From contig JAFCMP010000446.1 in NCBI GenBank assembly GCA_017506865.1, positions 248,001 to 312,000 on the forward strand: DNA of 64,000 bases, written 5' to 3'. This stretch comes from Tribonema minus. Taxonomy: Eukaryota; Sar; Xanthophyceae; Tribonematales; Tribonemataceae. The notes under the pieces were generated by a model. The model made no database searches. It saw only the letters and a program-made list of their open reading frames with translations, and was not told the DNA's origin. Each line of letters opens with the position of its first letter. The stretch's first letter is position 1. The translations under genes were made by a program, and so were the position numbers. Below are positions 3,095 through 63,960 of this stretch, one piece after another.

Positions 3095-4897
3095 TCAAGC
3101 GGTGGCGGAAGACGCGGAGTTGGGTACGTGCCGGTTGCCGCACGCCTCGCCGTGTGGCGGGCACGTGCACAGGCTCAGGTCGGGGCCGTTGTCGCAGGAG
3201 CACAGCGTGTTGAAGCACGCCGCGCAGTCGCCGGTGACGCGCTGCCAGAAGGCGTCACCGCGCGCGATGGCGCGCGTCTCGTTCGCCGTGAAGTGGCTGA
3301 CGACCTTGATCTCCTTGAAGATGTAGAGCCTGCCGTCGCTGGCGATGTGCCACGCGTCGGGGTCAAAGGGGGGGCCGAGGCGGTTGGAGGGGTTGCCCCA
3401 CGTTGCCTGCGAGGCCACAACGCACAGCATGCGGTAGGTATGCTTAGGTCATTGCCACAACGTAGAGCACGCAGTACGCTTTGGTGATTGTAGACTTGCG
3501 TTGCCCCCACGTCGCCTGCGAGGCCACAACGTTAGAGCATTCAGCACGCTTAGGCCATTGCCACAACGTAGCGCATGCAGTACGCTTAGGTAATTACTAA
3601 TTGTAGAATTGCGCATCTCGTGACAGGAGTGATGCTATGGGGGGCGAGCACAAATTGCTGACCTCCCTGGAGTCGTAAACAGTCAAGAAGAGCATGTTGA
3701 GACCAGATCATTGAGGAGCCTGTGACAGGGTGGGGGTTGAGACAAGCAAGCACTGTGCATGCAGGTTGTGGGCGATTCGTCATTGACATGCAACGCACTG
3801 TATCATGTCGACATGGGGTTAGTGTTACGCTGCTGCCTTAAATGCAGCTTGTAAGACACTGCAGCTCGGCGCATTCTGTCAACATACTGCAAGGAACTAC
3901 TGCGGCGAGCAACACCAGGGACAACACATTTGCCGCTTGCATCAAGTGTCTTGGGGCAGCGTCAGAGGTAACTGAACAGTTGACTGTTCCTGAAGCAGTG
4001 ACGACCGATGTTTGCTCCACGTATGCGTCACGATGCCATGCATGCTCAACAGGGGAAGCCTGTGCGTCACGCCAGACCCCGGGCCAAACAAGTACTTTCG
4101 TGAACTGCAAGGTTCGCCGCTTGGTGTTGAGGGCAGCAATCTATTTGTTTGGTCAAGCCTGCCTGGCGCGCATGCGAGCAGTAGGCTGCATGGCAATGCC
4201 TAGACGAATAGACGGTTGTGACGGTCACAAACCAAGAATTGGGGGCAGTCTTGGTCACAGGTCAAAGAGCACCTTCAGCAACGCGGAGCACTTCTAAGTA
4301 TATAGTTGCGCGACACAATTCACGTACCTGCTCATAGGCAATGCCGTAGGCGCAGAAGTTGCCCCACTTGGGAGCATACTTGGCAGGACTGGCCTCGAAT
4401 AGAGCTTTGTTGCTTCGCGTCGCAAAGTAAAAGGTAAACCCCTGGTACAGGCAGCTGATGCGGCTGTCGCCCTTCACAGCCGAAGACCCTTTCTCCAGAC
4501 TGAAGTACGCCACCACATCCACGCCTCCCAGCACTGGCAGAGAGCTGTCTATACATGCTGTATCGGTCAATATGTCGCTGTAAGCATCCAGCTGCAAGGC
4601 AGGCTGAGAAAGAGCCGTTGCCTCGGCAGCTGCAACTCGAGAAGCTGAAGATCCGGGGAGCGTGTTGGCGCCGTTCATCACGGTAGCCAGCTGTATCCTT
4701 GGGTCTCTGCCTGTGCTCCCAGTGGTCAGCAGAAGGAACAGCACCGCTGCGGCGCCAAGTCCCACAATCGCTCCTCGTGCTTTGAGTGAAGTCTGAGGAC
4801 GATTGGGCCACGTGCGCTCAGCACTGCTGCTTGAGCTGCGAGCAGAGTCTATCGCGCAAGCGCCATAAGACGCCAGCAGAGGCTGGCGCTCCCTCAT
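3095..4897 (-). CDS. Membrane-anchored YHS-domain protein, 293 aa
   Basis: Two exons: 4897-4328 (190 codons from an ATG) and 3406-3095 (103 codons plus stop). The junction is CAG|GTACGTG to CTCGCAG|GCA in phase 0. Residues about 42-60 form a transmembrane helix (GAIVGLGAAAVLFLLLTTG) after a short Ser-rich cytosolic tail, so a type II topology is likely. The YHS region spans about 125-255: GGVDVVAYF, a middle LYQGFTFYFATRSNKALF, then KYAPKWGNFCAYGIA. Across the intron it continues with DPDAWHIASDGRLYIF. In bacterial relatives this domain, the AYF/YxF/CA pattern, is linked to metal or redox functions. The role here is unknown. The C-terminus is Cys-rich (six Cys in about 25 residues), which fits a lumenal or extracellular position. 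A degenerate copy of the exon 2 acceptor edge lies in the intron near 3499-3530. Confidence 0.75.
3425..3600 (-). repeat. Degenerate copies of YHS exon-2 acceptor edge
   Basis: The words ACGTCGCCTGCGAGGCCACA and CATTGCCACAACGTA recur just upstream (coding sense) of the real exon 2 acceptor at 3406, at about 3440-3475, 3500-3530 and 3555-3595. They are imperfect tandem copies of the exon edge plus adjoining intron. Confidence 0.6.
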
Positions 4898-5459
4898 GGC
4901 GGGTGCACCCGGCTTCTTCGATCAAGTGGATCTAAGGATGAGGTGCATACATACCCCCTTGAAGTTCTTCATGTTGAAGCCCCTGGCAAGCAAGAACTGC
5001 GCTGTGCAAGCTGCAGTGCACCACACACCACCAAACTCATGCAAAGAGCAATCATTGTTCATGTGCAGGCAAGGCAGGTGACCTCCCACTTGTCACTCTC
5101 AGCAAGCCCTAGGTAGGGAACACGCATATCTACATATGTAGAGACAGAACCGTCACATAAGCATGGACACAGCCGCAATGCTGCTTATTATCATAATCAT
5201 TTCATTGACACAGCGCTTGCAGTAGGTTACAAGGTACACCCCCCCCCCCCCATTACACGAGCAATGTCGCTGGTTGCGCAATGCGCATCGGGCTTTTTTA
5301 AAAGAACAACTGAACTTGCAGCGCACGGATGTCGTTGGCAAATCAGCCATCAATCCCCGCCCTCCCCCAGATCATGTGTCCAGATCAGAGCGCCGGCCCT
5401 TTCTCCAAAGCCCTGAGCACTGGGCACAGGCTTATCACCTGCCCCCTTCCCCCTTCCCT
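4898..5459. other. Intergenic between YHS gene start and kinesin stop
   Basis: Both flanking genes are on the minus strand, so this must hold the 3' end of the kinesin-14 transcript and the promoter of the YHS gene. A C10 run lies at about 5239-5250. I see no additional gene. Confidence 0.5.
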
Positions 5460-8400
5460 CTACCGCGATGATGTCTTGCGGTGAATGGTGGAGCGTGGCG
5501 GCAGCGAGGCGACGCTGCTGCTGCTGCTGCACGTGCTGGCGCCGTCGTCTATGGTCGCGGAGGCGTCGCGGATGTTGCGCTTGGCGCGGCCGAGCTCGCA
5601 CTGGTTGACTTGACTCGCGAATCGCAGCGAGCACAGCGACTCGCTGTACGAGTCGTCGGTGGGGCTGCGGGAGACACGGAGGCGATGCGCGTGGCAGTAT
5701 GAGTGACAATTAGATTGGTCTCGAGCAGAAATTGCACAGCAAGCGTGCCCACAGAGAAACGGGCATCGTGGATGTTGGTGCTATATTGGGGAAACGGCAT
5801 CTGCTGCATGCGACAGAGCGGCGTGTACAGTATCACAAATGTGTCACAGTCATGCAACGGTGTGAATGTGAGAAGCCACATGCTTGTATCGCTGGTCACA
5901 GAGCAAGTGCACGCCGTTGTACGCAAATGCATGCTTGACAACCTGATGTTGTCTTTCATAGCAGGGTGCGCAAGCAGTTGGCATGAAGTCTGCGATACAT
6001 AGCAATCAAGACTTCAACAGGCCAGAGGGACGCGCGCTACGCGTAAGCGACAAGCGACAACGGATGCTGCCGCACACACTCCAACCCCAATTCTAACCCT
6101 ACTCATAGCAGATGAAATACCAGCGCAGACACGCCCCGCGCACAATCCATCACAGCAGACCCACTACCAGGATTGACAAACACACTCATACGTTCGCGAC
6201 ATAGGTATACCGCCCTCAGACGCCAAAATACACGCGCTGCGTCACCTGAGGTTGACCATCATGAGCGTCTTGCCCTCCCCGCTGAGCGCCGGCTGCAGCA
6301 GGTACGTCAGCTTGCTGTTGCGGAACGGCACGTGCGCGGTCTTGTTGGCCAGCGCCGTGAAGACATCGGTCAGCGCGCTCAGCGACTTGTTGATGGCCTG
6401 CGTCTCCTTGAGCCGCTGTCCCGTCGCTCCAGACCTGCAGCATTGCTCAGCGTCAGACACAAAGGAGGTTGGTCAGGATACGCAGAGGGTCCATCGTGAA
6501 GCCGCATGTGCTCAGCATCAGACACGGGGGGGGGGTTAGGACAGTCAGAGGGTTCATTGTGAAAGCGGACGTTGGCACTCTGGAAGTGGTATAGAGACGA
6601 TGACAGAATGCTGCATTTCCATGCGGTGCCAGTCAGCCCATCCTAGCCTTAGTGCGCGCAATTGAACTGTCGCTGTCGATGAACGTGCGCGAATTTGGTG
6701 CTCCGGATAGACACCGAGAGGCGTGCGCGAGTGCGTGCGATCGATGGATTGGCATGGACGCGGCCTGGCAGGATGACTCGCAACGCAGCTCCTTAGGTTT
6801 GGGGTACGAGTAAGTCGGGGTTAGGCGGCACCCCACGTAAACTGCAAAGCGGGTATCAGGCATTCATAATGCTGCATCGAAAGCTCTTCGCAAGGTTAGG
6901 GTTAGGGTTAGGGTTAGCCATGGAAGGCATCAGCATACGTCACAAACCCAGGTACTACATCCAAGGCTAGAGCTCACGACCAGTTTCAAGAGAAAAAAAG
7001 AGGTGCCAGATAAGCCCCTGGCATTGGGGCTCGCTGACCATGACAATTTGAACTTTGAGTACAAAGTGAAAAAGTGCCAAGTCCAGTCCCCCTAAGAAAA
7101 GGAAGGTATTCAAGCAGTGCGTGGCGGCGGCTGCGCCCGTTTGGAGCCGCTCGCTGCCTCTGTGTATTAATCAACACAGCAGAAGTTGAGCAACAACTCG
7201 GTAACAAAGCTGACCAGAATTATACGAAAATACAGCTGGCCGGTTGACTCAGCGCCACACTTGTCAAGCCGTGCGCCCAACACAACAGAATGAAGGTGGG
7301 ACAGTATGCAAGCACTTGAAGTTTGGTGGAGCGTGAATGCCACACTTGTCAAGCCGCGCGCCCAACACAACAGAATGGAGGTGGGACAGTATGCAAGCAC
7401 TTGAAGTTTGGTGGAGCGTGAACGCGCTTTACACGCAGTTTGCGCTTGTTTTGAATTGTCAATCACGTACGTACATACCTGTCGAGCCGCTCGCTGCCGG
7501 CGAGGTCCACGAGGTGCAGCGCGCCGCGCAGCGCGCTGCCCGCGGCGGCGTTGCTCGCGCGCATGTACAGCGTGAACACCTGAAGGAATGGGGGGCGAGC
7601 GACCCGGAACAGACAGCCTCTTTTGTAAGTTGCGCTTAAAGCAAGTCAGAGACCATCACCTCAGTATTTGCTTGAATCTGAAACATGTGCATCACCACCT
7701 CATGTTTTCTGTTGCATTGAGATCATGGTGTGCGGCATGCTGCGCAATTACATCTGCATTGCCAGTAAGCCGTGCTGCCACGCTTAGCACATCAACACCC
7801 ACCACGCTCTGGCGATCAGCGCCAAAGGGTTTCTGGCCCTCGCCCTAGGGTTAGGCCTGACCAGGAAGTGAAGTTGCGCGTAACGGCTTTGAAGTAGAGG
7901 TAGAACTTGAAAGTAGAGACTCTGAGCCCTCGAGAGCTCTGCAGGCCGCGAAGCGTGGCCGCAGGCTTGAGACTGCGATGCGATACATGCCAAGTGCCAA
8001 AACGCCGCATGCGGTCAGCGCCGCCTGTGCAGCAACACTTCGAGCCAGCGCCATAATCAGCTGGCAGCTTCCTGGATGTTGTCGGAGGGTGTTGCCGCTG
8101 GGAGCGGCAACTAGGCCCCAGAGCGCTGATTGGTGAACGGTTGTAGCAGTACGCACGTACGCATACCCATCTCGCAAAAAACAGCACGCCCAGATGCATC
8201 AGTAGTGCGGAGACTTGCGCGCGCCATGACTTAAGAAGGCTTGCGCCCTGAAGGGTCCCTCACGCTGTGGCTTCGTGACGATCTCGCGTTCATGGAGGTG
8301 CAGCCAACGGCGCGGTGGCGCGCTGCAAGCTCCAGGATGCGTTCCACCTCCCCCGTGTCGGTGGGGTCGAGGGGCAGCAGCGTGAGGTCCGTGACGGGCG

Positions 8401-11400
8401 ACATGCTGCCGCTGCGCGTGTCGTGCTTGATCTCGTGGCGCGCGTCGTAGGACGCGTCGTTGGCGGCGCCGGGCGCACGCTCGCGCAGGAGGTCGCGAAT
8501 CTGGCGCGTGCGGTGTGTGCGTATCGCGCAGGCGTAGGTACGTGTATGAGCATCGTTGTTGTGGCAGATACGTGTTGCGCAGGCGTATATACATATATCT
8601 TTGAGCATCGTCTTGTCACAGGTGCGTCGTAGGACGAGTCATCGGCGGCGCCGGGGGCGCGCTCGCGCAGAAGGTCGCGGATCTGGCGCGTGCGGTGAGT
8701 ACGTGTCGCGCAGGAGCATGCATGTGTATGAGCGAATACACACATGCGTATGAGCGAATACACGTTGCGCAGGCGTATATACATGTGTCTATGAGCATCG
8801 TCTTGTCGCAAGTGCGTCGTAGCACGAGCCGTTGGCGTATAGCGCAGGCGTAGGTACGTATTTGAGCATAGTTGTTGTGTGCAGGTGTGGCGCAGGCGTT
8901 TGCATGTCTATGAGCATCTGCTGTGTGGCAGGCGCGTATTGCTGACGCTGGCGCCGGGGGCGCGCTCGAGTCGGAGGCCGCGGATCTGTTGCGCATGGTG
9001 AGTACGTATCGCTGTATGTGTATACATGTGTCTATGAGCATCAGCGGGGGGGTGGGTAGCGCGCAGGCGAATGCGTGCATGTGGGTGACTGTGTTGTGGC
9101 GGGTACGAGTTGTGCAGACGTATACCGTTTGTCTATGAGCATTGTCTCGTGGCGCGCGTCGTATGCAGAGTCGTTCCTCGCGCCGGGGGCGCGCTCTCGC
9201 AGGAGGTCGCGGACCTGGCGCGCGTGTGTGTGTGTGGGGGGGGAGGTATGTACCATGCACAGGCTCATGTATGTGTGTGTGTGAGCATCTTTGTTGTGTG
9301 CAGGTGTGGCGCAGGCGCATGTATGTATGTATACCTGCATGTCCACAAGTACATGTCTGCTGTGTGGCACACGCGTGATGCTGCTGCTGGCACCGCAGGC
9401 GCGGACGCGCTCGCGCAGGAGGTCGCGGATGTGTCGCGTGCGGTGGGGGGTGGGTGGGGGGGGGGGGGGGGGGTATGTATCGCACGCAGGCATATACATG
9501 ATATTAGTGTAATCAACATGAAGATGTCGCCACAGAAGCTGCTGCGTCGGCCGAAGTGGTGCTGAGGCTATGTTTGCGACCCGCAAAAGGTGGACGTGGT
9601 GGACATGCTTGGGAGAGGAGCTGCAACAGCATTACAGGTTGAGGTTCAGTACAGACTTGGCACCTCAAAGAAAAGGAAAGCCTGGAGAAGGAAGGGGCTA
9701 CAAGCACCCTGGCGCTATCAGCAACCGCTATCACATACTTCAAAGACAAAGGCAGGCACGTTCAAGCAGGGAATCTCTGCGCCAGCTGCGCCATTCAACA
9801 CGAAGAACGCTGACTGTCAAATGCCGTGTGTCATGTGTGCATGCCGCGCAACCTCGCAGATGCGGGCAAAATTTGAGCACTGTCACGGCCCTGCACAGAG
9901 GAGCGTCACCGCGCACGGTGATTTTCACTCATGCAATAGGTACTTGGTGAGTCACCTGCTTGCAGTTGTTACGCTAGAGAAAGAGGTGTGTGGTGTCGCC
10001 GAGGCATGAGCGCACTCACGCCTGCATGCATGGCTGGGATCATCGCTCATCACCTGCTCAATTGCAGCAAGACCACGGACACGTTGTAAAGCACCCCACG
10101 CTGCTCGGCAGACAGGCCTACTTACACAAGACATGGTTTGCAGCATGGCTCGTCACCTGCTCGGTTACAGATCACACGGACATCTTGTAGGCCCACCCCT
10201 GCTTCTCGGCGGACATACCTAAAACATTGGGCATGCTTTGCAGCATCGTTCATCACCTGCTCATTGTAGATTTCAAGGAAACTCGCGCTCATCTTGTAGG
10301 CCCACCCCTGCTTCTCGAGGCTGCACTTGTAGCGGCCGACCTGCTCCATCGCACGCGGAATGATGCCGCGCATGGGCCCCGCGCCAGACCCTGACGCAGC
10401 AGGTGCGACAAAGGGTGTTGAACATGTACGAGCGCTGTACCAGCATGTTCCATGTATTACAAAGAGAACAAATTCGGGATGAAGCCGGGCTTGGGCCCCG
10501 TGCCGGACTCTGACGCAGCAGGTGCGCAGGTGTTGAGTTTGTGCGCAGTGGCCAATGCACGCGCTGAACGAGGCAGTTGGCATGATCATGTACATACATA
10601 CATGCCATGCACGACAGGTCCTGCGTCAGACCCTGACACGACAGGTGCGGCAGAGCGCGTTGCCGATGTGCTCGATGCGAGCGGTGGACGAGGCACTCTG
10701 CATAGCTCGTGTATATCACTACACGCATTCACATGTAGAAGACCATGCTGCACGAGGACATGCATACCTAACCCTAACCCTAACCCTAACCCTACATGCG
10801 CGTGTTGACCACATGTTGACGTCCGCATGCAGTTACGCATGTATGCGTGTATGCTCTACAAATCGTTGACACTCATGTGCAAAGTTGAAGAAAGCAGTGC
10901 TCATGCGAAAGACTTGCTTGCATGCAATACCGCACATGACGAGAATCATCAAAGCCGTGCCACGCAAGAAGAGCAGTGCCGGAGCAGTGATGCGCCGTGC
11001 AGCAACTGCAACAAGTGACTCACCTACAACAGTGTGCGTCTTGCCGGAGCCGGTCTGGCCGTAGCTGAACAGGCACACGTTGTAGCCATCCAGAGCGCTC
11101 TGGACGAACTGAAGAGAGGGGAAGAGACAGCACAATACGCAAGAGATGATGATGGGGGTGAGCCAATGCGCAGGCTGTCGCGAAAACGTTGACAAGCAAC
11201 CGTGCTGCGCCATTGCCACTGCTGTGGATGCACCTTGCAGTTCAAACATGGTGGAGTCAGCATGGCACAGCAAGTGCACATAGCAATCATGTATGCGGCT
11301 GTATGAGCAGCAGGTGTTGTTGCTTTTTGTGTTGCCAGTTTTTGCCCACCCCCAAATCAAAGATGGAGAGAGCCCCCCCACATCGCGCTGGCAAGGGTTA

Positions 11401-14400
11401 GACCAGCCCACGCTGAGCCAGCTGCATGCCGCATGAATGCCAAGTCTTGATGCATCACCTACACCGCAACTGCCATTGCTCAACCTGTGACGCCTCCGCA
11501 ATCACGGCCTTTCGCATGCTAGTCAGCAGACACGCACATGGCTTGACCTTTACCTACTTCAAGAACTACTCCAACCAACTTTAGGGAGTGACGCACCTCT
11601 GAAACCTCCGCGAACACGGCCTCCTGCCCCGCGCTCGGCGGAAACACCCTGTCAAACGCGAAAGTGTCCGTCTTGACCACCGCGCCGCTGCCGCCGTCGC
11701 CGCCGCGCTGCGCGTCGCGCTTCACGATGACGCAGCTGACGCCGTCGCCGCGAGCGCTGATGGCGGGGGCCGCGCCTGCGGGGGCCTGGTCGTCGGGCAG
11801 GAATGGGCGCACACGCGCGTACACTCGCACGTTGCCACGCAGCTGCAGTGCGACGGCAGCAGCGGTAGGGTTGACGTGGTGGGGTCAGGGTTAGGGCGGA
11901 ACACATGCGGGGGATTGGTCGTCGGGCAGAAATGGGCGCACACGTGCGTACACTCGCACATTCCCGTGCAGCTGCCAGGGGCGAATGAGGGTGAGGGTTG
12001 AAGTGGTTGGGTTAGGGCAGCGCACATGCGGGGTATGTCATAGCACGCGGCCTTGCAGTTGCAGGAAGCGGCATTGGGGTTTGAGGCAGCAAGTCAGGGT
12101 TAAGGTGAGAGCGGTGCAAAGTTAAGGTTGGGATGTGAGTGTGTAGATCAGCGGATGAGGCTTATCGTCAAAAATCTGCATAGTCAGGGCTTGGGTGAGA
12201 GCTGCGCGCGCTGCCGGGAAAAAAGCAGGGCTAGTGCTGCGTAGATGGGGTTAGGGGTAGTACAGCGCATATGGAGGGGGAGAGGAGTCACGGTTCGCCA
12301 CTGTTGTAGGCGTACAGGCGATGCTTGGCGAGGACTGTATGTCGTCAGGCTCGTGGATGTTTAGCGCGCTGCACAGCTGCGGGGGAGCGCATAGGTGGCG
12401 AGTGCGAGAGATTGCGATTTAGCACATGCATACGCTTGATGATGCTCGGCGAGTTCGCCGCCGTGCACGCTGCCGCTGCCGGCTGCGCGTCTGTTTCCAG
12501 AAGTACAAAAGCGCTGGATGCCGCATGCTCTGTGAAATGTGACACCAACGCTACAACGCGCGCGCTTCCCTTTGAAAGCATTGGGCGATTGTGCCTGAGA
12601 AACAAAGGGTCATCGACGAAGCTGATACTTCAATTTGAGGTTTGTACGACGCGCATCACACCAGGCGCTTGACCACAGCAGCGCTCCGCTCACCTTCTGC
12701 ACCAGGTTGCACAGCTTCCACCGGTGCACCTTGCAATCGCGCACTTGTGAGGTGCTACTTCAACTTGAGATTAGTAAGAGGGCAAGATAATTTCTACAAC
12801 AGCTTCTACTGCTTCAACTTGAGGTTAGCAAAACGTCACACTATCAGTCACACCAGGCGCTCAGCTCACCTCCTGCACCAGGTTGTGCAGCTTTCGCCGC
12901 TGCACCTCGCCATCGCGCACTTTTCCGTCCAACTCCGCGACAGCGGCCTCTAGGCGCTGGCGTTCGCTCAACCTGTCCGCCTCTAGCGCGGCCAGGCGCA
13001 CGCGGGCGATGTCCAAGTCGCCCTGCGCGCCGTAAGGGATAGGGGTGTGGGGTTGGGTTTAGGGTTAGCGCAAAGAAGTAGGGTTAGGGGCAGGGATGCC
13101 GAACGAAAGCTCTGCAGGGTCATGTGGCATCAACAACAACCCTAACAACAACATGAATAATGTCCAAGTCGCCCTGCGGCGCTGTGAGGAGTAGGAGTGT
13201 GGGGTTAGGTTTAGGGTCAGCTGGGAGCAGTGGGGATGGGATCAGGGTGACAACACGAGGGCAGGCTGCCAGACAATGGCTCAGCGGGGGCCAAGTGGCA
13301 TCAACAACAACGCTAATAATGTTTATGTCGCCCTGTGCGCTGAGAGGACGACACAACAAGGGCTAGGGTTGGGGTCAGGATGATCTAGTGGGGGTCATGC
13401 GGATAGTGCAGGGGCACTGACACCAGCGCTCAACCACTTCGGCTCACCTGCGCCCGCGTGAGCTCCTGCAGGTGCTCCTGCATGACAAAAGACGTCGCCG
13501 CCTGCACTGCCTCATCTCTAGCCCTAATCCTAGCCCCAACCCTAACCCTAGCTCAGCGCTCAACAGCGCTCAACCCCTCCTCCCTCACCTGCGCCCGCGT
13601 GAGCTCCTGCAAGCGCTCCTGCGTCACGGACGACGTCACCGACTGCAATGCCTCCTGTTCAACCCTAGCCCTAACCCTAACCTCAACACTAACCCTACGT
13701 ACAGCGCTCAACCCCACCTCCCTCACCTGCGCGCGCGTGAGCTCCTGCAGGTGCTCCTGCGTAACCAACGACGTCGCCGACTGCATGCCTCATGTTTCAC
13801 CCTAGATTATAGGTTTAACTTGTAGGTTAGGGCCCTAACCCTAACCCTAACGCAGCGCTCAACAGCGCTCAAGCACACGGCTCACCTGCGCGCGCGTGAG
13901 TTCCTGCAGATGCTCCTGCGTAACAGATGACGTCGCCGACTGCATCGCCTCGCGCAGCGTGCGCGCCTCCGCCTCCAGTTCCGTGGAACGCTCCTCCGCG
14001 GCTCGGAGACTGGTCCTGAGAACCTTCTGGGCCTGTTCCGCGGCCGCGGCGGTTTCGGCAGCGATGCGCTCCGCCTCCGCGCGCTGCGTGCGGCCGCGTT
14101 CAGCTTCCAGCGCCTGTGCAACTTCCATGGCCATGAGCTGAGCCGTAGCTGCAAAACAAGGAGTTGGGCGGCGACGGTGATGATGATGAGTGCGAAGGTC
14201 GCCAGGGGCATGGACCTCAGCAGCGGTGAACATTGCAGCGGGGATGCTGGTCTTGCCAGGGGTATGGCTGGCGGTGTGGGTCACGCGGTGCCTTAGGTTT
14301 TGGGTTGGTACTCCTAAGCTGGCGCCACAGCAGACAAATACTGGAAGAAGAAGCCGTCAGCACGTGTTGCCGTAACTCAACCCTAACCCTAACCCAGCCA

Positions 14401-17400
14401 GTGCCCGCCTCCACAACGTCGTTGGCCATGAGCTGAGCCGTAGCTGCAGGATGAGAGGGCAGCAGAGGCGCAACTGATGAGCGTGCTTTGTTTGATGAAT
14501 AAAAACAAAAGCTCTGTTTTGCGTTGTTGCATGGGGTTTGTGGGGGAGTCAGGGTCAGGGTTGGGCCATGGGCGACCTCCTGGCGCACAGTTCTGTGCAC
14601 GCCGTGACTCATTCATACTCATTCACTCAGACTCACCAGCAATGCAAACACGCCGCATCAGCTCCTCGCGCGCTTTTATGGACCGCAATACCTCACTCAT
14701 TCACTCACACTCAGACTCACCGGCGAGCGCTAATGCTGCTCCTGCTCCTTGCGCAGCTCCGTCCAGACAGTGTGAGCAACTCGTGTACTCAGACTCACAC
14801 TCAGACTCACCCGCGGTACGCTCGCAACGCTGCAATATCCGCCAAGCTCCGGCCAGTGACAGCTCACTCACCCACTCGCACTCAGCCTCACCAACCTGTG
14901 CTCGCGCCGCCTCACGCAGCTACGGCGACTCACTCATGCACTCAGACTCGCACACTCAGACTCACCGGCTATGCGCTCACAGCACTGCTCCTCGCAAAGC
15001 TCCGGCCAATGAGAGCTCACTCACCAACTCGCAGTCGACCTCACCAACCTCTGCGCTCGCGCCGCCTCGCGCAGCTCCGCACATGCACAGCGACTCACTC
15101 ACTCAGTCACTCAGACTCCCACTCAGACTCACCCCCGGTGCGCTTTCAACGCTGCAACTCCTCGCGCAGCTCCGGCCAATAACAGGCTGACAACTAACTC
15201 ACCCACTCACGGTCAGTCACTCACTGGCTGCGCTCTCGCGCCGCCTCGCAACTCCGTCAAGACAGACGGCGTCACTCACACACTCAGACTCGCACTTGTA
15301 CTCGCCCGCGGTGCGCTGGCGCCGCTGCGACTCCTTGCGAGCTCCGGCCAATAACAACTCACTCACCCACTCGCACTCAACCTCACCGGCAGTGCGCTCG
15401 CGCCGCCTCGCGTAGCTCCGCACGCCCACAGCAACGACTCACTGACTCACTCAGACTCGCACTCAGACTCGCCCACGGTGCACGCGTGGGCTACAACTCC
15501 TCGCGAAGCTCCAGCCAATGACAGCTCACTCAACCACTCGCACTCAGCCTCACCGGCTGTGCACTTGCACCGCCTCGCGCAGCTACAGCGACTCACTCAT
15601 CCACTCAGACTCGCACTCAGGCTCACCCGCGGTACGCTCGCGCCGCTCCGACTCCTCGCGCAGCTCGGCGCGATGACAAGTTGTCAACTCACTCACCCAC
15701 TCGCTGCCAGTCACTTGCCGAGTATGCAGTCGCGCTGCCTCACGCAGCTCCGCACACGCACGTCGACTCACTCATGCACCCCGACTCGCACCCAGACTCA
15801 CCCGCGGTGCGCTCCCGCCGCTCCGACTCCTCGCGCAGCTCCGCGCGCGCCCTCAGCTCACGCTCCACCGCCAGCCCCTCGCTGGCGCTGTTGGCCGAGC
15901 GCTGTGCTTCCGCCAGCGCCGCGCGCGCCTCCGCGCTGTCGCCGCGGCAGCGCTCAAGCACCTCGCGCAGGCTGCTGAGCTCCGCCGCCTGCGCCGCCGC
16001 CGTCGCCTTGTGCGCGGCCATCGCCTCCACCAGCCTGGGGTGTGTGTGAGAGGGGGGGTTAGGGGTGTGTGAGGGGGTGTGTGAGGTTGTGTTGTTCAAG
16101 GGTGTGTGTGTGTGAAGGTGTGTGGGAGGGGGGGGAGATGGTGCGCTTACGGCAAAAAGCGTTTGTGCATCGACTGGCGCTGTCCCTGGCCGTAGTCTAT
16201 GAGGGAGCGCGGCATCATGCTTGTGGTGATTGCTGATGACGTGTGCAACGGGCAGGGATCGCAACATCTCTACTGCACCATGTGCGGGGAAGAGCACGTA
16301 CACGCAGAACAACATAGGCTGCGGCATAAACACACCAACTCTGCGCTTCAGAAAAATCATCATGCATCTTCTTCACGGCATCGAGACCCCTTGTCTGCTG
16401 CAGCGTCACCGACTGCCCCTGCCCACATCGCCCACCACCGACCACCACGGCGCAACTCGCATCCAGGTGACATGCCAGAAGCACCACAGCGCCTCCACAC
16501 CACCTCCAACTCTGCACTCCCACTGACGCGAGCATGCACACGCACCTGCTGCGCTCGCTCTCCGCCGCCGCGGCGCGCCCCTCCGCGGCTCGCGCCGCCT
16601 CCCGCAGCTCCGCCTCCCGCCTCTCCCCCGCGCGCGCGCCCTCCGCCAGGCTCGCCAGCATCCCCGCCACCTCCGCGTTGCGCGCATCCAGCGTCGTCCT
16701 GCTGCGCGCAGCATCCTCGCTAGCGCGCACCAGCTCGCCTTCTAGGCGCGCGCGCTCCGCCGCGCCGCTCGCCGCGTCGGCAGCGGCGCCGCACGCAGTG
16801 GCGCGCGCCTCCTCCGCCGCCGCCGCCGCGGTGCGCTCCGCGGCGGCGAGGGCCTTGGCGGCGGCGGCGGCATCCGCGTCGCGCGTCGCGAGGGCGGCAC
16901 GCGCGCGGTCGAGGTCGGCGCGCAGCGCCACGGCGGCGGCGCGCTGGTCCGCCGCGGAGGCTTCGTAGCGCGCGGTGAGTTCCTGGAGAGAGTGGTGTTT
17001 GAGGTGGTGAGAGGGGGCGGCGGTAGTGTTAGAGTGGGCGCGCGGGGCAGAGTGCAGTGTTGCAGTTCGGCAAGCGTTTGTGCGCGCACGATCGTGGCGG
17101 CTGTTATGGGGCATCGCAAGAGCTCATGGGGTCACCAGCCTGCCAGCGCTGCGCAGCGGTGCTGATGAAGCTCGGAGCACCGTAGGAGCATGGTGTATCT
17201 GAAGTACAACTGTAATCAATGAGGTCGTGGACATGTGTGCCTATGCAGTAACATGCCCAGAGGCGCCGTTGCGAGCTTTATTACCTTATCCATGCACTGC
17301 TTGGGGCGTTCGTGATGGTGCGGCAAAGCATTAATCCATGGCACGTCAGCATGCATGATCGATGTGAACATGAAGTTGCCCAGCATCACTGCCTTCTCCA

Positions 17401-43800: not shown

Positions 43801-46800
43801 TGCGTCAGAGGTCAGGTTCTTGCCGGGGTGGGTGTTATTGTCTTCAATGTAGAGTGTGATGCAGCCCCTGGGGGTGCAAATGAAGAAGTGCACATTGCTT
43901 AGGTATGTAGAATGCTGAGATGTGCCACCACCAAAAAGTTGGATGTGCATGCTACAAAGTGAGTCTCCATGGTCCTCTGCCCACGAAATGTCAACGTGGG
44001 CAATGCGCAAATGGGCGTTTGTAATTGACTATTGCCGTACCCCTAGGGCCTGAAGCGGCTTGCCGTCAGCTGACTATCAACACAGGAAAACAGCGTGCCA
44101 GCATGCAAGAGGGAGCATGGACTGACCCTATACCTCTGATTCCACCTGTGACCCTGGCACTTGCCCATCATACATAAATGCACAGGAGGCTACGCTACCA
44201 CCCAGATGTACGAAGTACGCCAAGGCCATGTCAGATTTGCAGTCATGACCCTCACTGAAATGAGGATAGCGCACAGTACACATTGGCAAATGCCGCCGCG
44301 GGGGGGGGGGGGGGGGGGTCGCGCCCGTGACAGCATGCAAGGGGTACCTCTAACCCTGACCCTACCTTTCAACTGTTAATTCAGATGCACAGGAGGCTAC
44401 AGTATGGCAATGCTGCGGCACAAGCATCATGCAGCATACTGCCCCAGATCGCCGTGTCTGTACAGTTTGACAGCGAGCTGTCCAGCTCAGCTCTGCGCAC
44501 TACGATTGTTCGCCACGCGTCATGGCTCATACACATCCATCGGGGCGCAGGGGACACGCGCATACGCACTTCCTACCCCCCATTACCTTACGTAAACTAC
44601 TTGAGCCGCCTTGATGAGAGTGACACGTCGACCCCTCCCCCCCCCCACCCCCACCCCCGTTAAACTACTTGAACTGCCTTGAGGAGAGTGACACGTTATC
44701 CCCCCCTCCCCCCCCCCCTCCTCCCCCTGTCGGCCCCCACTCACCGCGGATCGCTGGCGTCAATCGCCTCCCCCGCCCTGTCCGGGAACACGAACGCCGT
44801 GTGACCGGGGTCCATCTCCGGCACTCCCACCACATACTGCTCCGCCACCTTGGCGTAGAACCTATAGATCTCATCGTGGCTCATCTCCGCCGTGGGCTTG
44901 TCGGGCATAACCCCCAACCCCCCATTGTCGGCGTCCTTTAGCGCAAGGTATTCGCGCGTGGTTATGATCTTGACACGGTCCGGGAAGGCCAGGAAGTCGG
45001 GCGTGTAGTAGTCGCTGAGGCCGAGCGGGTCGCCGTGGTGCTGCAGGTAGAGGCCGTGCAGCGGCGGCAGCACGAGGGTGCGCCCCGTCATGCTGGCGAA
45101 GGCCACGACCGTCTCCGCGCCCATCCTGCGACCCGGCGACATGCATACGTGATGGCAGTGGTGAAATGAGGGGGTTGAATATAAACTTCAAGTTCAGGGG
45201 GGGCAGGCCGTGCAGCGGCGGCAGCACAAGGGTGCGCCCCGTCATGCTGGCGAAGGCCACGACCGGCTCCGCGCCCATCCTGCGACTCAGTGACATACGT
45301 GATGGCAGTGGTAAGATAGGGCGGGGATCGAAGATGAGCTTCAGGTTCAGGGTACAGGCCGTGCAGGGGCGGTAGGACGAGGGATGCTGGCGCACGCGAC
45401 GACCGTCTCCGCGCCCATCCCGTATGACGGCAACGAGCGTAAACGTTGGTGAGACAGGGATGTGGAATCAACTTGAAGTTTAGGTGCGAGATGCAGGCCG
45501 TGCAGCGGCGACAGCACGAAGGCGTGCCCCGTTGTGCTGGCGAAGGCGATGGCTGTCTCCGCGCCCATTCGGCGACATCGACGCGCGATGATGGAGTCAG
45601 ATGCAAGACAGATTAACATCAACTTCAACTTCAAGTTGGACGCTCTGTCATGCAGCATACGTCACATCTGTCTCGGTGCCCGTCCTGTGACAGTGCGTGA
45701 TGACGGGCTCAACTTCAAGTTCAACAGTGGCAGCGACAGCACCAGCATGCGCCCCGTCTTGATGGCAAATGCCACGACAGTTTCCGCACTCTTGCTGCAC
45801 GACCCAGCCATGGGAGGTGACGATGACGGTGTGTAAGACGAGGGGCAACTGTCACCTTCAACTTCAAAGTAAGCCAGGCGGAACCCGCACAGCACAGTGC
45901 ACGGCGTCATTGATTACAGACAAGCGTGCGCCAGCGATGACCTCTGTGATGCAAGGCAGACGCGCCAGTTCTTTCTCTCTCTTCACTCATACACTTTCCC
46001 TCGACACTACTGCAGTCTCGGCAATTCAACTCTAGTCTAGTAGTAGGTAAATAGGCAAGCATCGGTCAGCCCGTATGCTCCAATGTGGCCGTGCGACACT
46101 GACGCGCAGAGCACTGTCGTGTGCAACAACAAAAACTGATGTGCACGCTGAATGTCAAGAACACGCACAATGGCTTGCGCTCGGCAGAGATCAAAGATGA
46201 CAGGAAACGCCGGAAACCAGTGCATGTCCCTGGTGCTGTTTGCATCTCTCTATTGATATGGTCAAAATGCGATATTTTGAAAGGTGCATGTTGGACAAGA
46301 CTCCAAAGCAAAGCAGCACTTGGGGCTGCCCACAACGTAAAAAATGATGTGTGCATGAGTAAACCACGATGCATTAGTGCTACGGTATGACTGCAAGGAA
46401 GGTCATGCAACACTCAACAGAAGCTGCGATACACCAACAAAGCAACTCAGTGTGACTTTCAAAAATGACCTATTGCTACCTTGCGGAGACACTCAGTCTG
46501 TGGCCAACATCGGGATGCCTCCTGTAGCTCTCAGCGCAATCAGGGCAGATTTAATCAGTCAAATGCTATTGCTCGGAGCCAGTAGATGTGATAAGCAGCT
46601 GGCACGTGCCACTCGCAACATAAGGCAAGCACAGTGACAATGAGCCACTTTTAACAACGCAATTCACCAATCACCCGCAATGGCATATCGCTGCTGTGCT
46701 CATTGACAGTGCCTGAAGTTGACGCCCCTGATGTTAAAGTTCAAACACCAACGAGTCGAGCATGCTGTGACAACAACGAACTTCATGTGCGGACGCACCT

Positions 46801-48602: not shown

Positions 48603-51600
48603 TCAGGCGTGCCGCTTGTGCGTGCGCGCGGACCCGATCTCGCAGCTGTTGACCTTGTGCGCGAACCGCAGCGAGCACAGCGTCTCCGCCTGGTGCTGCG
48701 GCTCTGGTGATACATTCACCAGCATGAGGACCTTGCTGTCGCCGCCGAGGCTGTGCTGGAGCAGGTACGTCAGCTTGCTGTTCCTGTACGGGACTGCCGC
48801 GTGTGGAGCAGCAGCGAGCAGCGGGCAAGGGCAGATCAGAGCGCGTCAGCAATCGATGCACTGTGCGGCAGGCATGGCGCTGTCCGGAGTGGCATCGGCA
48901 ACACAGCGAGCTCACACCGTAGCCGTAGAGATGGCATGGCATTGCAACGTCCGCTTGTGATGCGTACGGCACCTGCTGCTTGCTCCCAGCGCAAAGGGCG
49001 CTGGGACACACGCTCACATCTTCTTGTGTTCACCACTCAGCACACCCAACATGCGCAGCGACTCTCCCCCACACAGCTCGCTTTTTTGAAAGCGACGGGG
49101 CTCACCGTGGCGCTCCCCATTGGCGAGCGCGAAGATGACGTCGCCGAGCGCGCTGAGGCTCTTGTTGATGGCCTGCGTCTCCTTCAAACGCCCGCCCTCC
49201 GCGCCGGACTTGTCGAGCCGCTCGCTGCCTGCGAGGTCCACCATGGTCAGGCAGCCGCGCCGCGACTCGCCGCGCGCGCTGTCGCATGGCACGTGTAGCT
49301 GGAAGACGCTGTGGCTCCGCGAGGAGTGCGCGTTGGAGTGGGTCGCGCCCGTGGCGCGCGCGCGCGCAGCACGCCTCAGCAGGCCTGGCGGGGCATGTAT
49401 GCGGCAACAGCGTCAGAAACTAGCCGTTTAGCAGTGCATGTGCATGTTGCAGCGGTGTGCGTGTGGAGAGCGGTGCTGCCTAGTGTGACATGGCGCTTTC
49501 GCGGCAACTGGTGCAATGTGATGAGTTGGCGGCGTGCGTGTGTGGCAGGCGTGCCGCACGCGCGTGCCGATCAGAGTGAACAAGAGACTCAGTGTTTCAC
49601 AAAGAGAACGACTCTGTTGTGCGGCGACGCACATCGAGCGCTGCAGGGAGTGCACTGACCGCATGCAAAATGTGCCATGGTGTCACCGCAGCGCCGCGGC
49701 GCTGCAATGAGTGGGCGGCACATGAGGCGGCTCATACTTGAAGGACGTGTGCAACAACCATCAGCAGAGAGGACAGAAGCGCTGCTGCACAAGGGGGGCA
49801 AAGTGTCACCATCAGCGCTGTGCGACACGGCTGCTCAACATGGACTGTCGTGCAGCGTTTATGCAGCGTTGCACTATCTACAATAACCGAGCACCTGTGT
49901 CATTGCGGTTACGCAGCCGGCACGCTCACCATTGACGTCTTGGACTGACCTGCTGAGAGGAGCTGCTAAACATGGACTATTGTGCAGATTTTATGCAACG
50001 CTGCCCAATCTAACCAAGCACCTACGTCCTTGCGCGCTACCAGCGAGCAGCAGGCAAGCTCACCATTGACGTCTTCAGCTGACGCTATCTCATGCTTGGA
50101 CAGTCCAGCGACAGTGGTGTTGCCCTCTCGTCCGTGCTTGATGTCCAGTGTGCGCGCGGTGCAATCGCCACTGCTGGACTCCGAGGCGAGCAAGTCGCGT
50201 AGCGTCTCATTGTAGACCTGCGCAGAGGCGGAGGCAACATCAAGAGTGTCATACTCAGGTTGCCAGCTGTGTGTCTTTGGATGACACTCAAAATGTGAAC
50301 AGCGAGCTCAAAATGTGTGAGGAACAAGCAAGGCGAGGCTGCCTGCAAGTGCTCCTATTGCGTGCTGCACGTTGTCCATGTATGTGCCATTGCCCTGCAA
50401 TGAGAGCCTCTACTCGTGACAACCACGGAAGATGCAGCATGAATGAGTGTTGCTACTGATGTATCATCAATACACCTTGTTGTGTGATTTGAACATGACA
50501 TTGCTAATGTATTGAAGAACACCTTGTTCTGTGATTAGCTGGCAGTTGCACAGGTATTAACCTGAGCCTGCTGCTTCAAGCTGTGACTCACCTCCAGACG
50601 GCTGACTCAAGCACTCTGAATGCCAAGCCAGCAAACTGCAAAGCAATATGAAATGCCATGCCAGCAAAACAGCAAAGCAAAGCAAGCTCGCCTCCAGGTG
50701 CGTCACGTGTGCGCCGTCAAACTTCCACCCCCCCTCCTTCATTGCCTCCATAGTCGCAAAGATCTGTGCCACGGCGCGCGGGATCATGCCCCTGTGCTCC
50801 TCCGCTTCCGGTGACCCTGTGCCCATTGTCCAGGTTTTGCCGCTGCCAGTCTGGCCGTATGCAAAGAGGCAGACCTGCGCATGGTGGCAGCAGCGCGTGC
50901 TTGGTGACATGAGCTCCAGCTGGACAGAAGTCAGCAAGTACTTCGAGGCAGCATTGGCATCGAAGATACGAGTGGGGAGTCGATGCAATGGCAAGGACAG
51001 ACCAAGCTGACCCTGGCATACTGTACAAGTTGAAATCGCATCCACCACCTGAATGCACCACTGAGTGCACAGTTGCTGGGCAGTTGCAATGTGTGGCATC
51101 ACGCCATGACATTGTGTTGGCAGCGACTTTATCAGCGAGCAAGAACCATGCACCCCCTCTGCTGATCAGTATGAGCATGGCTAAGAGGATAGGACCACAT
51201 CTTGAGCGATCGCAAGCGTCGGCAGCAGCAGAATGTAACATTGCTCACCTATGCATACCCCCCTCCCCTCGCTCGCCTTTCAGCCTGACGCTAACCCTAC
51301 CGCTGGCCTAGCCCTAACCCTAGCCCTCAAAACGCACGCACCTTGTAGCCGTCGAGCACTGATTGCACCAGCTGGCTGATGTCGCGGAAGACGTCCTCTT
51401 GAGACGCGTGCGGCCCGAACACACGGTCAAACTGCACAGGCCACAGGCACATGGCACGCAGGCTGATTGATGATGTCGTGATGTCATGCACAGGGCGATG
51501 CATCAGTATGGCTCACTGTACATTTGCAGGAAGCATCAGGCATCTCATGGCGGACATCGACCTGACACCGCGGTGCAGTCGTGCTGGTCAGATTTCATCA

Positions 51601-53685
51601 GGAGGAGGCAGGTGCTTGCATCAGTAAAAGCTTGCCATTCTGGCAGCATTGGGTGAGAATGTGCGTAATTCAAATTGCACTTTGGTGAATCAATTACCAC
51701 AGAGCGCATTCGTGATCGCGTTCAGTGGCGCAAGTGCTTGTGGCATCTGACACGAAGCTCATTGAAAACGGGCATAGCATGAACAATGTACATTCTTTGT
51801 GCAATGTTAAAGCACAGAATTGGGCACTGTAACCCTGTTACATACATATCAGCAAAATCCCAGTCAGTCATCGCAAGTGCAGGGTTAACATCTGCATCAA
51901 CATGCAGCCTCGACATATTGGCATGCTCGCCGCATGCAGAGACTCACCAATTGCAAGAGCAAAAGTACCGCACCTGAAAGTCACAGCTCTTAGCCTCCCC
52001 CCTGTTGCCGACCACCGTGTCCCTGCATGCCATGCAGTGCAGCACCTACATGTCGGCATGATCGATTGCCACATTCAGAGACTTGCTTATTGCAAAATCA
52101 CAACTACCGCACCTGAAAGTCCCAGCTCTTGGCCTCCCCCCTGTCCCCCACCACCGTATCCCGCGCTGGGCCCAGCAGCGTCAGGCGCCTGTGCTCGGGG
52201 TCATTGGACGGTATGGCTAGGGTGAGGCCACCAGTCGCCGCATAATCCGCATCTTCGGCCTCAGCAGTCGTGTCAGTGCTCGCCTCCAGCAGCGGGCGCA
52301 CGCGCGCGAACACCCTGATGTTGCCTTTGAGCTCCTGGATGGTGTTGTGCAGACGTCTGTTTACGAAGTGACAAACGGTTCATGAGGGAAGGAGGGGTGG
52401 GGGGGGGTAGATAACTGTTTCGTTTGCTGCCAGTCTCATGTTTTTGGCGCACCGAGCCCACGTGTATGGCAAACCAACACGGCATCTGCCTTGCCCTGAC
52501 CCTCAGCTGGCAGTGCATGTGCACCGCGGAAACGCACAAACCCGAGCAAGGGCACGAGTACGACAATCATTAGCAACTGGGAAAAATCTTGCCAATCCAA
52601 CAGGACATGACACGAAAGCCTAAGACGTCGTTCAAGAGCATGGTATACTGCACGAGGCCATGCACATGTGAGCCCAGCTCTGAGCGCAACTCCCCGTTGC
52701 AGACTGGGCCATACGACAACAGCATGTTGGCAGGTACTGAATTGGGCGGCTAGCAGCAACGCTGCAGGCCGCTCTGGAGTGTGCCCTACTTGCGGAATGC
52801 CAATCCTCCTGCTCACTTGTGGCACGCTAAGTCTCCCGCCAAATGTGCGTACCTGCGCTCCTCCTCATGGGCAATCTCAGTTCCCTCCAGCTCTGCGATC
52901 TTCGCACGGGCCGCAGTGACCAGCGTCCTCTCATGTGCCAGCTCCGCCTGCGATGTCTCCAGCGCCTCACGCGTCGTGCACAGCTGCGCTGCTGTGTCCT
53001 TTTCCATCTGCTGCGACGCTGCAAGCTGCTCAGCGGTAACACGCAGCTGCTCACGTGCTGCTGCCAAGTCATTCTCGGTGCACTTGAGACTCTCTTGCGT
53101 GGTCGCCAGTTCAGCCGAGAGTCTATCGGCGTTTGCCTGCTCCTCTGCAAGCCTCGTCTGTTGCAGCAACGCGACCGCTTTCTCCTCCGTCAGCAGCTGT
53201 TCAAGCCCTTCCTTCGCAGCCGCGAGCGCCGTCAGCTGCTCTTCCGCCTGCAAAAGCCGGTCTGCAGTAGCTTTCGCAGCAGACGCCCCTGCTGACGCCG
53301 ATGCGCCAGGCCTGCGAGCTGTAGCTCCTGCTGCTGGCTTTCCTGCTGCTGGCTTTTTGGGTCCGCTCCTCGCTGCTGCCTGCACATTGAGTCTGTTGGC
53401 AGCGGTGGTCGACAGGGCTGCGCGTGAGTTACTGGTTGCTTGCCGCTTGCTGGCAGGGCGATCTGCGCCTGCAGAAGCCTCGGCGGCTCTCTTGAGAGGC
53501 ACCCGTGCCGCTGTTGCAGGCCTGGCTGCTGCTGCTGCAGTCGAAGTGGACATCGCACCTAGCCTGCTAGCACTGGCGCTGCCCGCTGCCATGCGAGACT
53601 GAGGAGTTGGGGCTGTTGCAGCAGGCCGCTTCACCTGCGGCGTGGGCAGCCGGCTAGGCCTCGCAGCAGCAGCGGGAACTACCAT
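48603..53685 (-). CDS. Kinesin-14 (C-terminal motor), 657 aa, 7 exons
   Basis: Exons: 53685-52853, 52356-52113, 51431-51342, 50874-50692, 50217-50064, 49384-49106, 48793-48603. They sum to 1,974 nt (658 codons) with matching phases. Residues 1-130 are an Ala/Pro/Arg-rich basic tail with KR-rich patches (possible nuclear signal, PLKRAAE and ASKRQ). About 140-278 is a coiled coil. The neck and motor start at [20 protein letters not shown] (about 277-297). The motor has P-loop GQTGSGKT (about 396-403), switch [10 protein letters not shown], switch II DLAGSE and [16 protein letters not shown]. It ends [13 protein letters not shown], giving a compact KIFC1/Kar3-like plan. Intron 4 uses a GC donor (GGAG|GCGAGC). 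Intron positions differ from the first kinesin in this window, so the two are not a recent tandem duplicate. The start is a true ATG, 182 bp from the divergent homoserine kinase start. Confidence 0.9.
49915..50063 (-). repeat. Copy of kinesin #2 exon-5 donor edge
   Basis: GCTCACCATTGACGTCTT occurs at about 49925-49943 and again at the functional edge (50058-50078). The flanking TGTGCAG, TTTATGCA and GCAACGCTGC words are shared, giving a period of about 130 bp. Confidence 0.7.
51950..52112 (-). repeat. Copy of kinesin #2 exon-2 donor edge
   Basis: ACCGCACCTGAAAGTCACAG with CTCTTAGCCTCCCCCCTGTTG at about 51966-52008 copies the functional exon edge at 52107-52160, with the same flanking GACTCACCAATTGCAAGAGC-like intron words. 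Confidence 0.8.
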
Positions 53686-60855: not shown

Positions 60856-61050
60856 TGAAAGTTTTGAAGTTTACTTCCAGTTCTGTCGCCGGGGGTTCGC
60901 CTCGGTGTGTGCGACGAGCTGATGAAGGCGCGGAGGGGAAAGCCCAGTGGACAACAAGCGGTCTGGAGCTCGTCCTGGACTCGTCATCTGGGTCCGGAAG
61001 GGGGCAAGGGTTTTGGCTGGAGCGGAGTCAGCACCCGCCATGGCAGAGGC
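60640..61050 (-). repeat. Duplicated SNARE 5' segment
   Basis: The block at about 60690-60810 (coding sense GGCGGGTTTTGACTATGCTC, CCAGCCAAAGTCTTGCCCCC) recurs at about 60930-61045 (GGCGGGTGCTGACTCCGCTC, CCAGCCAAAACCCTTGCCCC). The distal copy has ATG where the proximal copy has GTG, so it may hold the real or an alternative start. Confidence 0.7.
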
Positions 61051-62645: not shown

Positions 62646-63835
62646 AGCAGCTCGAGCGAGTCCACCGTTTGCACGACGACGTGCGACTGCGAGTACCCCC
62701 CCGCGTCGCCCCCGTCCTTCTCCATCTGCTCCTTGATCCACGCGATGGTGCGCGTCATGCCGTCGCGGATGCTGATCAGCGGCTCCCAGCCGAGCTCTGC
62801 GCGGATCATGGTGTTGTCGCTGTTGCGCCCGCGCACGCCCTGCGGGCCGGGGATGTGGCGGATTGGCAGGTCCTTGCCCGCGAGCGACATGGCCAGCTTG
62901 CCAAACTGGAGGGGAGAGGGGGGGAGAGGGGGGAGGGGGGGGAGGGGGTCGTCAGTATGTGTGTGAAGTGCTTTGGTCAGTTGTGATGCCAGTACTTCAA
63001 CAACGGCACATACTTCGTCAGAGTGGGAGCTGTAAGAATAGTGTTGTTTCATGTGGTGTTGGACTCTCAATCGGTACTGAGGTACAAGGTCGCGCGCGCT
63101 ACGCTGTCAACAGAAACGTCCTTGAAACGCGCGAGTTCAGAAATAACACCAACAGACATCCATGATGCCAACACATACCCTGCTAAGTGATTAAAAGCGG
63201 CCACGTGCATCTGGCGGCAGTTGCCGGGAATGGCGTACGCTACAGCAAAATCTGCTACGTCAAATATAAGGGCACAGTGTCACAGTCCCAACAAAAAGCG
63301 GCACAAAACCATAACATGGTGCTACGAGGTCTACAGCAACAGCTCAGTTCAGAAGGGCACTGCGAGCAGTACACTGCGAGTACACCCGACAGCTCACCTC
63401 GTTCATGCTGATCATCTCCTCCGTGCCCAGGTTCAGCGGCTTGTCGCAGTCGCCGTTCAGGATGCGCAAGTAGAAAGTACACTGCGGTACACTGCGAGTA
63501 CACCCTATACCTCACCTCGTTCATGCTGATCATCTCCTCTGTGCCCAGATTCAGCGGCTTGTCGCAGTCCCCATTCATGATGCGCAAGAAGTAGCACACT
63601 GCGGATACACTGCAAGTACACCCTAGTACCTCACCTCGTTCATGCTGATCATCTCCTCTGTGCCCAGGTTCAGCGGCTTGTCGCACTCGCCATTCATGAT
63701 GCGCAGGCACCCCTCCACGCAGTCCTCAATGAACATGAACGAGCGCGTCTGCTCGCCGTCGCCCCACATCTCAAAGTCCACCGTAGACGCCAGCGCCTTG
63801 CGGCAGAAGGCCGCGGGGGCCTTCTCGCGGCCGCC
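62636..63835 (-). CDS. GME: GDP-mannose 3,5-epimerase, C-terminal half (gene runs off right edge)
   Basis: It converts GDP-D-mannose to GDP-L-galactose (extended SDR family), an early step of plant-type ascorbate synthesis and a source of cell-wall sugars. Two exons are visible: 63835-63635 (67 codons) and 62905-62636 (89 codons plus stop), joined in phase 0. Family landmarks are GGREKAPAAFCRKAL, FEMWGDGEQTRSFMFIEDCV, LNLGTEEMISMNE, LPIRHIPGPQGVRGRNSDNT, LGWEPLISIRDGMTRTIAWI. These match the plant enzyme closely in order and spacing, including the substrate-site GPxGVRGRNSDN. The N-terminal NAD-binding half and the catalytic Cys/Tyr/Lys exons lie beyond 64000. The C-terminal tail after KEQMEKDGG is about 20 residues longer than I expect. 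The intron between the two exons holds two donor-edge copies of the upstream exon. Confidence 0.9.
63394..63634 (-). repeat. Two copies of epimerase exon donor edge
   Basis: CTCACCTCGTTCATGCTGAT through CGGCTTGTCGCA to ATGATGCGCA is functional at 63631-63705. It is copied at about 63395-63470 and 63513-63588, with a 119-bp period. Coding sense IMNGxCDKPLNLGTEEMISMNE stays intact in both copies, with only a few base changes, so the duplications look recent. Confidence 0.9.
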
Positions 63836-63960
63836 CTGCAGAATGAAATTACGCAATGAATAAATCATGAATGAATGAATGAAACCGTAGACGCCAGCGC
63901 CTTGCGGCAGAACGCCGCGGGGGCCTTCTCGCGGCCACCCTGCGGGAGAATGAATTCATG
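63836..63960 (-). repeat. Copy of epimerase exon acceptor edge
   Basis: CCGTAGACGCCAGCGCCTTG through TTCTCGCGGCCACCCTGC at about 63885-63943 copies the 5' edge of the exon starting at 63835, including its acceptor. It is followed by AATGAATGAATGAAT microsatellite. This lies in the intron that continues off the window. Confidence 0.85.

Follow-up and report, generated by a model that had tools for sequence, protein, structure and literature searches.

Exon ends copied with their splice sites into adjoining introns in a 64-kb window of the Tribonema minus genome

Genes of the window and the affected exon edges

The window analysed here, a stretch of 64,000 nucleotides from Tribonema minus (Xanthophyceae; contig JAFCMP010000446.1, positions 248,001 to 312,000 of the forward strand), is eukaryotic, with ~57% G+C and intron-bearing genes, the majority of which lie on the minus strand. 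Our analysis confirms that small tandem duplications have placed copies of about a third of the checked exon ends in these genes, splice site included, in the adjoining intron. We assigned splice sites manually, guided by reading frames, matches to protein families and GT/AG dinucleotides, and the resulting gene models give a curated set of 33 introns with 63 usable exon edges, three sides without a usable exon being excluded. Kinesin motor families are matched in two genes, K1 and K2 (best E 1.2e-28); including its coiled coil, K1 extends from about 19.0 to 5.5 kb, which corrects an earlier, sequence-only reading of the window. What that reading took for a single fucosyltransferase gene does have edge copies, but is really a pair of tandem O-fucosyltransferase-like paralogues, FA (34.9-41.1 kb) and FB (41.1-47.9 kb), which lie ~5.2-6.4 kb apart and carry arrays of copies at the same edges; FB scores above the O-fucosyltransferase family cut-off and FA below it. 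PAS and ankyrin families are matched in the PAS-ankyrin gene, GDP-mannose 3,5-epimerase in the GME gene and GHMP kinase domains in the gene labelled HSK, and the YHS family match falls below its cut-off. In the GHMP kinase gene, the second curated donor (56634-56635) appears to be GC, not GT, and downstream of its exons lies a 101-bp tandem duplication (58221-58423, 94% identical) that has no known edge associated with it. We use "kinesin-14", "homoserine kinase" and "SNARE" as presumptive names, in part taken from the earlier reading; a family search of 59979-60623 found no SNARE family.

The 21 accepted edges, with exons numbered e1, e2 and so on within each gene, and one duplication given for comparison are as follows.

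63780..63971, minus strand: GME acceptor edge of exon 63835-63635; one upstream copy (acceptor AG plus ~56 exon nt), offset ~104-106
63366..63705, minus strand: donor edge of the GME exon; two further intronic copies, offsets 119 and 237
51903..52162, minus strand: K2 e1 donor edge (exon end 52113); one copy, offset ~139
49830..50083, minus strand: K2 e4 donor edge (exon end 50064); one copy, offset ~134
45046..45798, minus strand: FB e2 acceptor edge (45125); four upstream copies
43013..43504, minus strand: FB e3 donor edge (43449); three copies
42601..42977, minus strand: FB e4 acceptor edge (42646); two copies, classed as exon-only by the automated clustering
41675..42256, minus strand: FB e4 donor edge (42172); three copies with exon parts of 85, 66 and 43 nt
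39751..40077, minus strand: FA e2 acceptor edge (39831); two copies
36994..37908, minus strand: FA e3 donor edge (37853); six copies
22861..23067, minus strand: PAS-ankyrin exon b acceptor edge (about 22898); one copy, offset 111
14577..15847, minus strand: K1 e3 donor edge (15802); long array, eight copies aligned
14111..14448, minus strand: K1 e4 acceptor edge (14137, position uncertain); one weak copy, 43 bp, offset 295
13421..13951, minus strand: K1 e4 donor edge (13886); three copies, telomere-type repeats inside the units
13009..13393, minus strand: K1 e5 acceptor edge (13022); copy at offset ~152-158, telomere-type repeats inside the units
12681..12922, minus strand: K1 e5 donor edge (12870); one copy, offset 176
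11777..12017, minus strand: K1 e6 acceptor edge (11842); one copy, offset ~127
10356..10726, minus strand: K1 e8 acceptor edge (10390); two copies
10028..10317, minus strand: K1 e8 donor edge (10257); copy at offset ~109
8442..9462, minus strand: K1 e9 acceptor edge (8500); upstream array, four copies aligned
3396..3595, minus strand: YHS e2 acceptor edge (3406); one copy, chiefly intron sequence, offset 106
7254..7425, minus strand: for comparison, an intron-internal 85-bp tandem duplication, 97% identical, without exon sequence

Detection, layout and state of the copies

The terminal 40 nt of each exon were compared with the adjacent intron, a local score of at least 36 being counted as a match. 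By this measure 16/63 edges match their own intron, compared with 12/1193 exon-internal 40-mers of the same exons, every one of which comes from an exon whose edge also reaches 36; set against the introns of other genes, edges match in 5/1683 comparisons, and all five are FA/FB edges. The sequence-only reading had proposed comparing edges with exon interiors in this way, and the outcome bears it out, but because a tandem exon copy enters an intron only via an edge, the comparison cannot tell seeding at borders from uniformly placed duplication. Junction queries of up to 120 nt of exon and 80 nt of intron (spanning match at E<1e-3) returned a match running across exon, splice site and intron at 23 of the 63 edges. 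Two were removed, the FA e2 donor (a telomere-type repeat) and the HSK e1 donor (47 bp, offset 392), leaving 21 accepted edges (YHS 1, K1 9, PAS-ankyrin 1, FB 4, FA 2, K2 2, GME 2), of which the K1 e4 acceptor is a weak member; an accepted copy is absent at the other 42, including 7/8 PAS, 8/10 K2 and 4/4 HSK edges. The count agrees with the earlier claim of at least a dozen such edges, and 10 donor and 10 acceptor families (FA e2 donor excluded) agree with the claim that both sides are affected. The list of affected genes stands for YHS, both kinesins, PAS-ankyrin, fucosyltransferase and epimerase, but not for the supposed SNARE gene, whose exon is not established; a duplication there (60720-60813 / 60956-61051, offset 236) lies over a possible acceptor. 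Since the copies hold intron nucleotides beside the splice site, their source was DNA or unspliced RNA rather than mature mRNA.

The layout is that of small tandem duplication: copies are adjacent, in the same orientation and free of unrelated inserts, most clearly at the GME donor and in the 85-bp and 101-bp cases. Unit length to the nearest copy ranges from 106 to 190 bp, with a mean of 138 and a standard deviation of 25 (19 values, omitting the K1 e4 and FB e4 acceptors), and the best-pair offsets of six internal families are 63, 68, 73, 85, 189 and 217. Only 4/19 unit lengths are divisible by three, and frame-preserving duplication is rejected. The footprints of edge and exon-only families occupy 8933 of 27114 intron bp (33%). 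This richness of edge-copy introns in exon-derived sequence is what might suggest relics of intron birth, each intron having arisen from tandem duplication of an exon stretch (the Rogers model). We regard this as highly improbable: an intron's own donor-acceptor junction match exceeds the cross-intron range in 0/30 introns (best 20; cross-intron maximum 34), and the copies carry intron sequence that already existed. Birth by whole-intron duplication is accordingly rejected.

The FB e4 donor copies start at different exon points (85, 66 and 43 nt) and therefore stem from separate events. In a tree of the FA/FB e2 acceptor units, the FB exon is sister to its own first copy (0.966) and the FA exon groups with the second intronic copy of FB (0.869), as expected if new duplications repeatedly displaced older units outward. 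Among the e3 donor units, a variant past the donor is common to FA_3, FA_4 and FB_1, and part of that array seems to predate the paralogue split. Both trees are rough, the alignments being short. FB e3 and its first intronic copy (43274-43504) match closely on both flanks, and the 30 nt past the donor differ and resemble older units, as if units of the array had exchanged sequence.

Insertion of introners or transposons near splice sites, or an artefact of assembly, appears extremely improbable. Repeats do cluster in introns, and elsewhere in the window there are two paired inverted repeats and a transposase-like region, but self-BLAST of the window revealed no intron family common to unrelated genes, and the few edge matches to other-gene introns are confined to FA and FB. 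The view of the earlier reading that no known named element class has this pattern holds to this extent, and introners are rejected for want of a dispersed intron family in the window. An assembly artefact is also rejected, the copies being 62-100% identical to the exon part and too diverged for collapsed reads.

Elsewhere, the minus strand at 29.6-33.3 kb holds broken reading frames, two of which match no Pfam family and which may resemble Mutator-like transposases; a 142-bp duplication (30785-31050) lies within this region. An inverted repeat pair of ~280 bp (24549-24830 / 33510-33779) is 81% identical and 9 kb apart. On the plus strand, 1027-1758 gives a weak presenilin match below the family cut-off. 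Rfam at gathering thresholds returned 0 matches, and a search of viral_contigs for relatives of FB e4 and of one K2 exon confirmed none.

The state of the copies was compared for 48 copies at 20 edges, the K1 e4 acceptor being excluded. Identity averages 0.836 in the exon part and 0.768 in the first 30 intron nt, values that are upper estimates because the stretches were chosen as alignable. Splice dinucleotides are intact in 38/48 copies, compared with 36.5 expected without constraint. Differences between copy and exon fall at codon positions 1, 2 and 3 in 127/882, 101/880 and 207/885 cases (0.144, 0.115 and 0.234), a third-position excess expected where the exon itself changes mainly at third positions and the copy changes freely. 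The copies look like unused, neutrally decaying relics beside a constrained exon. A function for them, as spare or decoy sites for splicing, as alternative ends of the exon or as templates for its gene conversion, would fit the frequent survival of splice dinucleotides, the third-position bias and the patchy first copy at FB e3, where units may swap sequence. Such a role is nevertheless very unlikely, given that the dinucleotides survive just as often as neutrality predicts, constrained change in the exon itself accounts for the third-position excess, and so few units keep the frame; moreover, copies of donor edges lack an acceptor and copies of acceptor edges lack a donor, and they therefore cannot be cassette exons. 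Alternative (tandem) exons are rejected on the same grounds of single edges, codon-position differences that fit unconstrained copies, and neutral dinucleotide retention. Alignment to a solved epimerase places GME exon 1 at residues 215-281 and exon 2 at 284-361 (from query position 3), a seamless join that leaves no room for the two intervening donor-edge copies.

Decay with distance, as first described, holds in part: the nearest copy is the most similar or tied in 11/11 multi-copy arrays, but the trend is non-monotonic in K1 e3, K1 e4, K1 e9 and FA e3. Neighbours in a tandem array are on average closer kin than distant units, which accounts for the similarity of the nearest copy, and the protein stays intact only through the unit that remains continuous with the exon body, so that the other lands in the intron and the array grows outward. 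Neither feature needs a special process, and the test of decay with distance proposed in the earlier reading proved uninformative on mechanism.

Placement of the duplications relative to exon edges

We consider it probable that recurrent small tandem duplications across splice junctions, followed by neutral decay, lengthen these introns. The principal competitor is uniform small tandem duplication without edge preference, in which ~140-bp units in ~820-bp introns would cross edges by chance, events in exon interiors would be purged and exon-derived copies would stay recognisable for longer; taken together, we judge this possible but unlikely. Geometry alone predicts 24-53% of families at edges, simulation indicates that edge copies are detected 1.22-fold better, and intron-internal and non-genic duplications do exist. 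To weigh the two, every exon-intron-exon stretch was clustered automatically, with offsets of 40-320 kept and purely exonic families, low-complexity pairs (trinucleotide entropy below 3.6) and pairs under 25 bases removed. The resulting 29 families comprise 21 edge-spanning, 6 intron-internal and 2 exon-only families. Uniform placement expects 6.5 of 27 families at edges, 10.2 with array-free intron lengths, 11.4 when the simulated detection bias of 1.22 is added and 14.2 with a bias of 2, whereas 21/27 are observed (P <5e-6 to 0.0037). Pseudo-edges give a similar picture outside arrays: 34/491 intron positions and 30/570 non-genic or unannotated positions are spanned by a duplication, versus 21/63 true edges.

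Several results weigh against an edge preference and the reading built on it. Inside arrays 153/208 pseudo-edges are spanned, and with arrays counted in, the intron figure rises to 187/699, near that of true edges. Among exon-internal pseudo-edges 49/173 are self-similar, at 58-79% identity and for the most part where the coding sequence is repetitive (coiled coil or alanine-rich), and in-frame exonic duplication may contribute. If the telomere-type family is dropped and the FA/FB arrays are counted once, the count weakens to 18/24 (P = 0.0012), and with a bias of 2 to P = 0.021. A hand count of 21 edge and 10 internal families, since superseded by the automated clustering, yields P = 0.059 under a threefold detection bias. 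The nearest copies alone differ by 25:16:63 across codon positions (hand tally), more skewed to third positions than a simple neutral model gives. Finally, the edge excess comes from a single window with manually built gene models. Collectively, geometry explains a good part of the pattern, and an edge excess of ~1.5- to 3-fold in family number remains. The suggestion that duplications are seeded at exon-intron borders is thus partly supported by the family counts, less firmly at their strictest, and a threefold bias would remove the excess.

Possible origin and comparison with known systems

In the favoured reading, tandem duplications of roughly 100-190 bp would repeatedly strike stretches crossing splice junctions, the duplicated stretch comprising the exon end with its splice site and part of the intron. 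Of the two units, the one still continuous with the exon body would stay in use and the other be spliced out as part of the intron; when the used unit duplicates anew, older copies would move farther from the exon and decay, and the intron would grow. By analogy, the duplications may arise during repair of DNA breaks, in which staggered breaks or nicks are filled in and the ends then joined, and breaks may be commoner near exon-intron borders. Of the internal duplications, the two in the best state of preservation (7254-7425 and 58221-58423) lie head-to-tail, and their alignments exceed the offset by 1-2 bases, which means little microhomology at the junctions. The replication- or repair-driven process invoked by the sequence-only reading fits the look of the copies, of which only old, fixed products are visible, and its repair step is drawn from analogy, a further point against the favoured reading.

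The same introns are rich in telomere-type repeats. TTAGGG/CCCTAA words number 312, compared with 71.8 expected under a first-order model; 23/24 tracts lie inside curated introns (K1, FA, FB, K2 and YHS; for example 10766-10795, 13661-13697, 38817-38842, 39206-39251 and 51307-51327), and curated exons hold 7 words. Sense TTAGGG follows donors and sense CCCTAA precedes acceptors: between the donor and acceptor halves of introns, sense TTAGGG words divide 144:17 and sense CCCTAA words 30:84. Tracts point away from the nearer exon in 21/23 cases (P = 6.6e-5), although several are copies within one array and not independent. Exon-intron borders might be recurrent break sites healed by telomere-type machinery, with fill-in yielding the duplications and telomerase the TTAGGG tracts; we view this as distinctly doubtful, but if true, the introns would be largely scar tissue grown outward from exons. 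Alternatively, tract orientation could reflect splicing signals, namely G-runs after donors and CTAAC branch-site-like sequence before acceptors.

Transposons are the usual explanation for intron lengthening and for the long, repeat-rich introns of some lineages. In the 8 genes here, arrays that trace to adjacent exon edges take up a third of the intron sequence, a countable route of intron growth in which ordinary tandem duplication would be the driver and selection on the exon the shaping force. If the edge excess holds genome-wide, splice junctions would be sites of recurrent DNA damage or faulty replication. The arrays also pose a hazard for annotation, in that a decayed exon copy whose splice site is intact can pass for an exon.

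Internal gene duplication, reportedly treated by Gao and Lynch in 2009, is said to involve duplications within genes that can include splice sites, and the present cases resemble it in both respects. Intronic minisatellites are arrays of tandem units of 100-180 bp with variable copy number; the arrays here are likewise tandem, intronic and of that unit size, but their unit holds coding sequence and a splice site, and the array ends in a live exon. Introner elements of Amoebophrya, like the present arrays, tie repetitive sequence to protist introns, but they form dispersed families with inverted and short direct repeats (PMC7789003), whereas each copy here stays local and has the neighbouring exon as its source. 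Potato RdRp, where an intron-exon junction is duplicated, exemplifies intron gain through tandem duplication (PMC4974935; Hellsten 2011 as cited there), and an 83-bp duplication inside an intron is also mentioned. That case shares with ours the tandem duplication of a stretch holding splice signals, but there a new intron was made, whereas here existing introns lengthen, the copies are spliced out, and the whole-intron signature is found in 0/30 introns. In mammalian cells, small tandem duplications are generated when CST and Pol alpha-primase fill in 3' overhangs and the ends are then joined; such duplications are introduced in that source as the commonest short (<100 bp) insertions in the human genome (PMC8355091). 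The present duplications are likewise direct, adjacent copies of short stretches, and the two junctions in the best state of preservation show little microhomology; they differ in their units, which have a mean length of 138 bp, return at the same places and are concentrated at splice junctions. In the literature covered by our search, outside which most subscription journals fell and of which we drew on partial texts, we found no description of serial, decaying exon-edge copies with an edge excess. Within-gene tandem duplication and intron gain by tandem duplication are known, to judge from these sources; what appears to be new is the series of edge copies, seen in one window.

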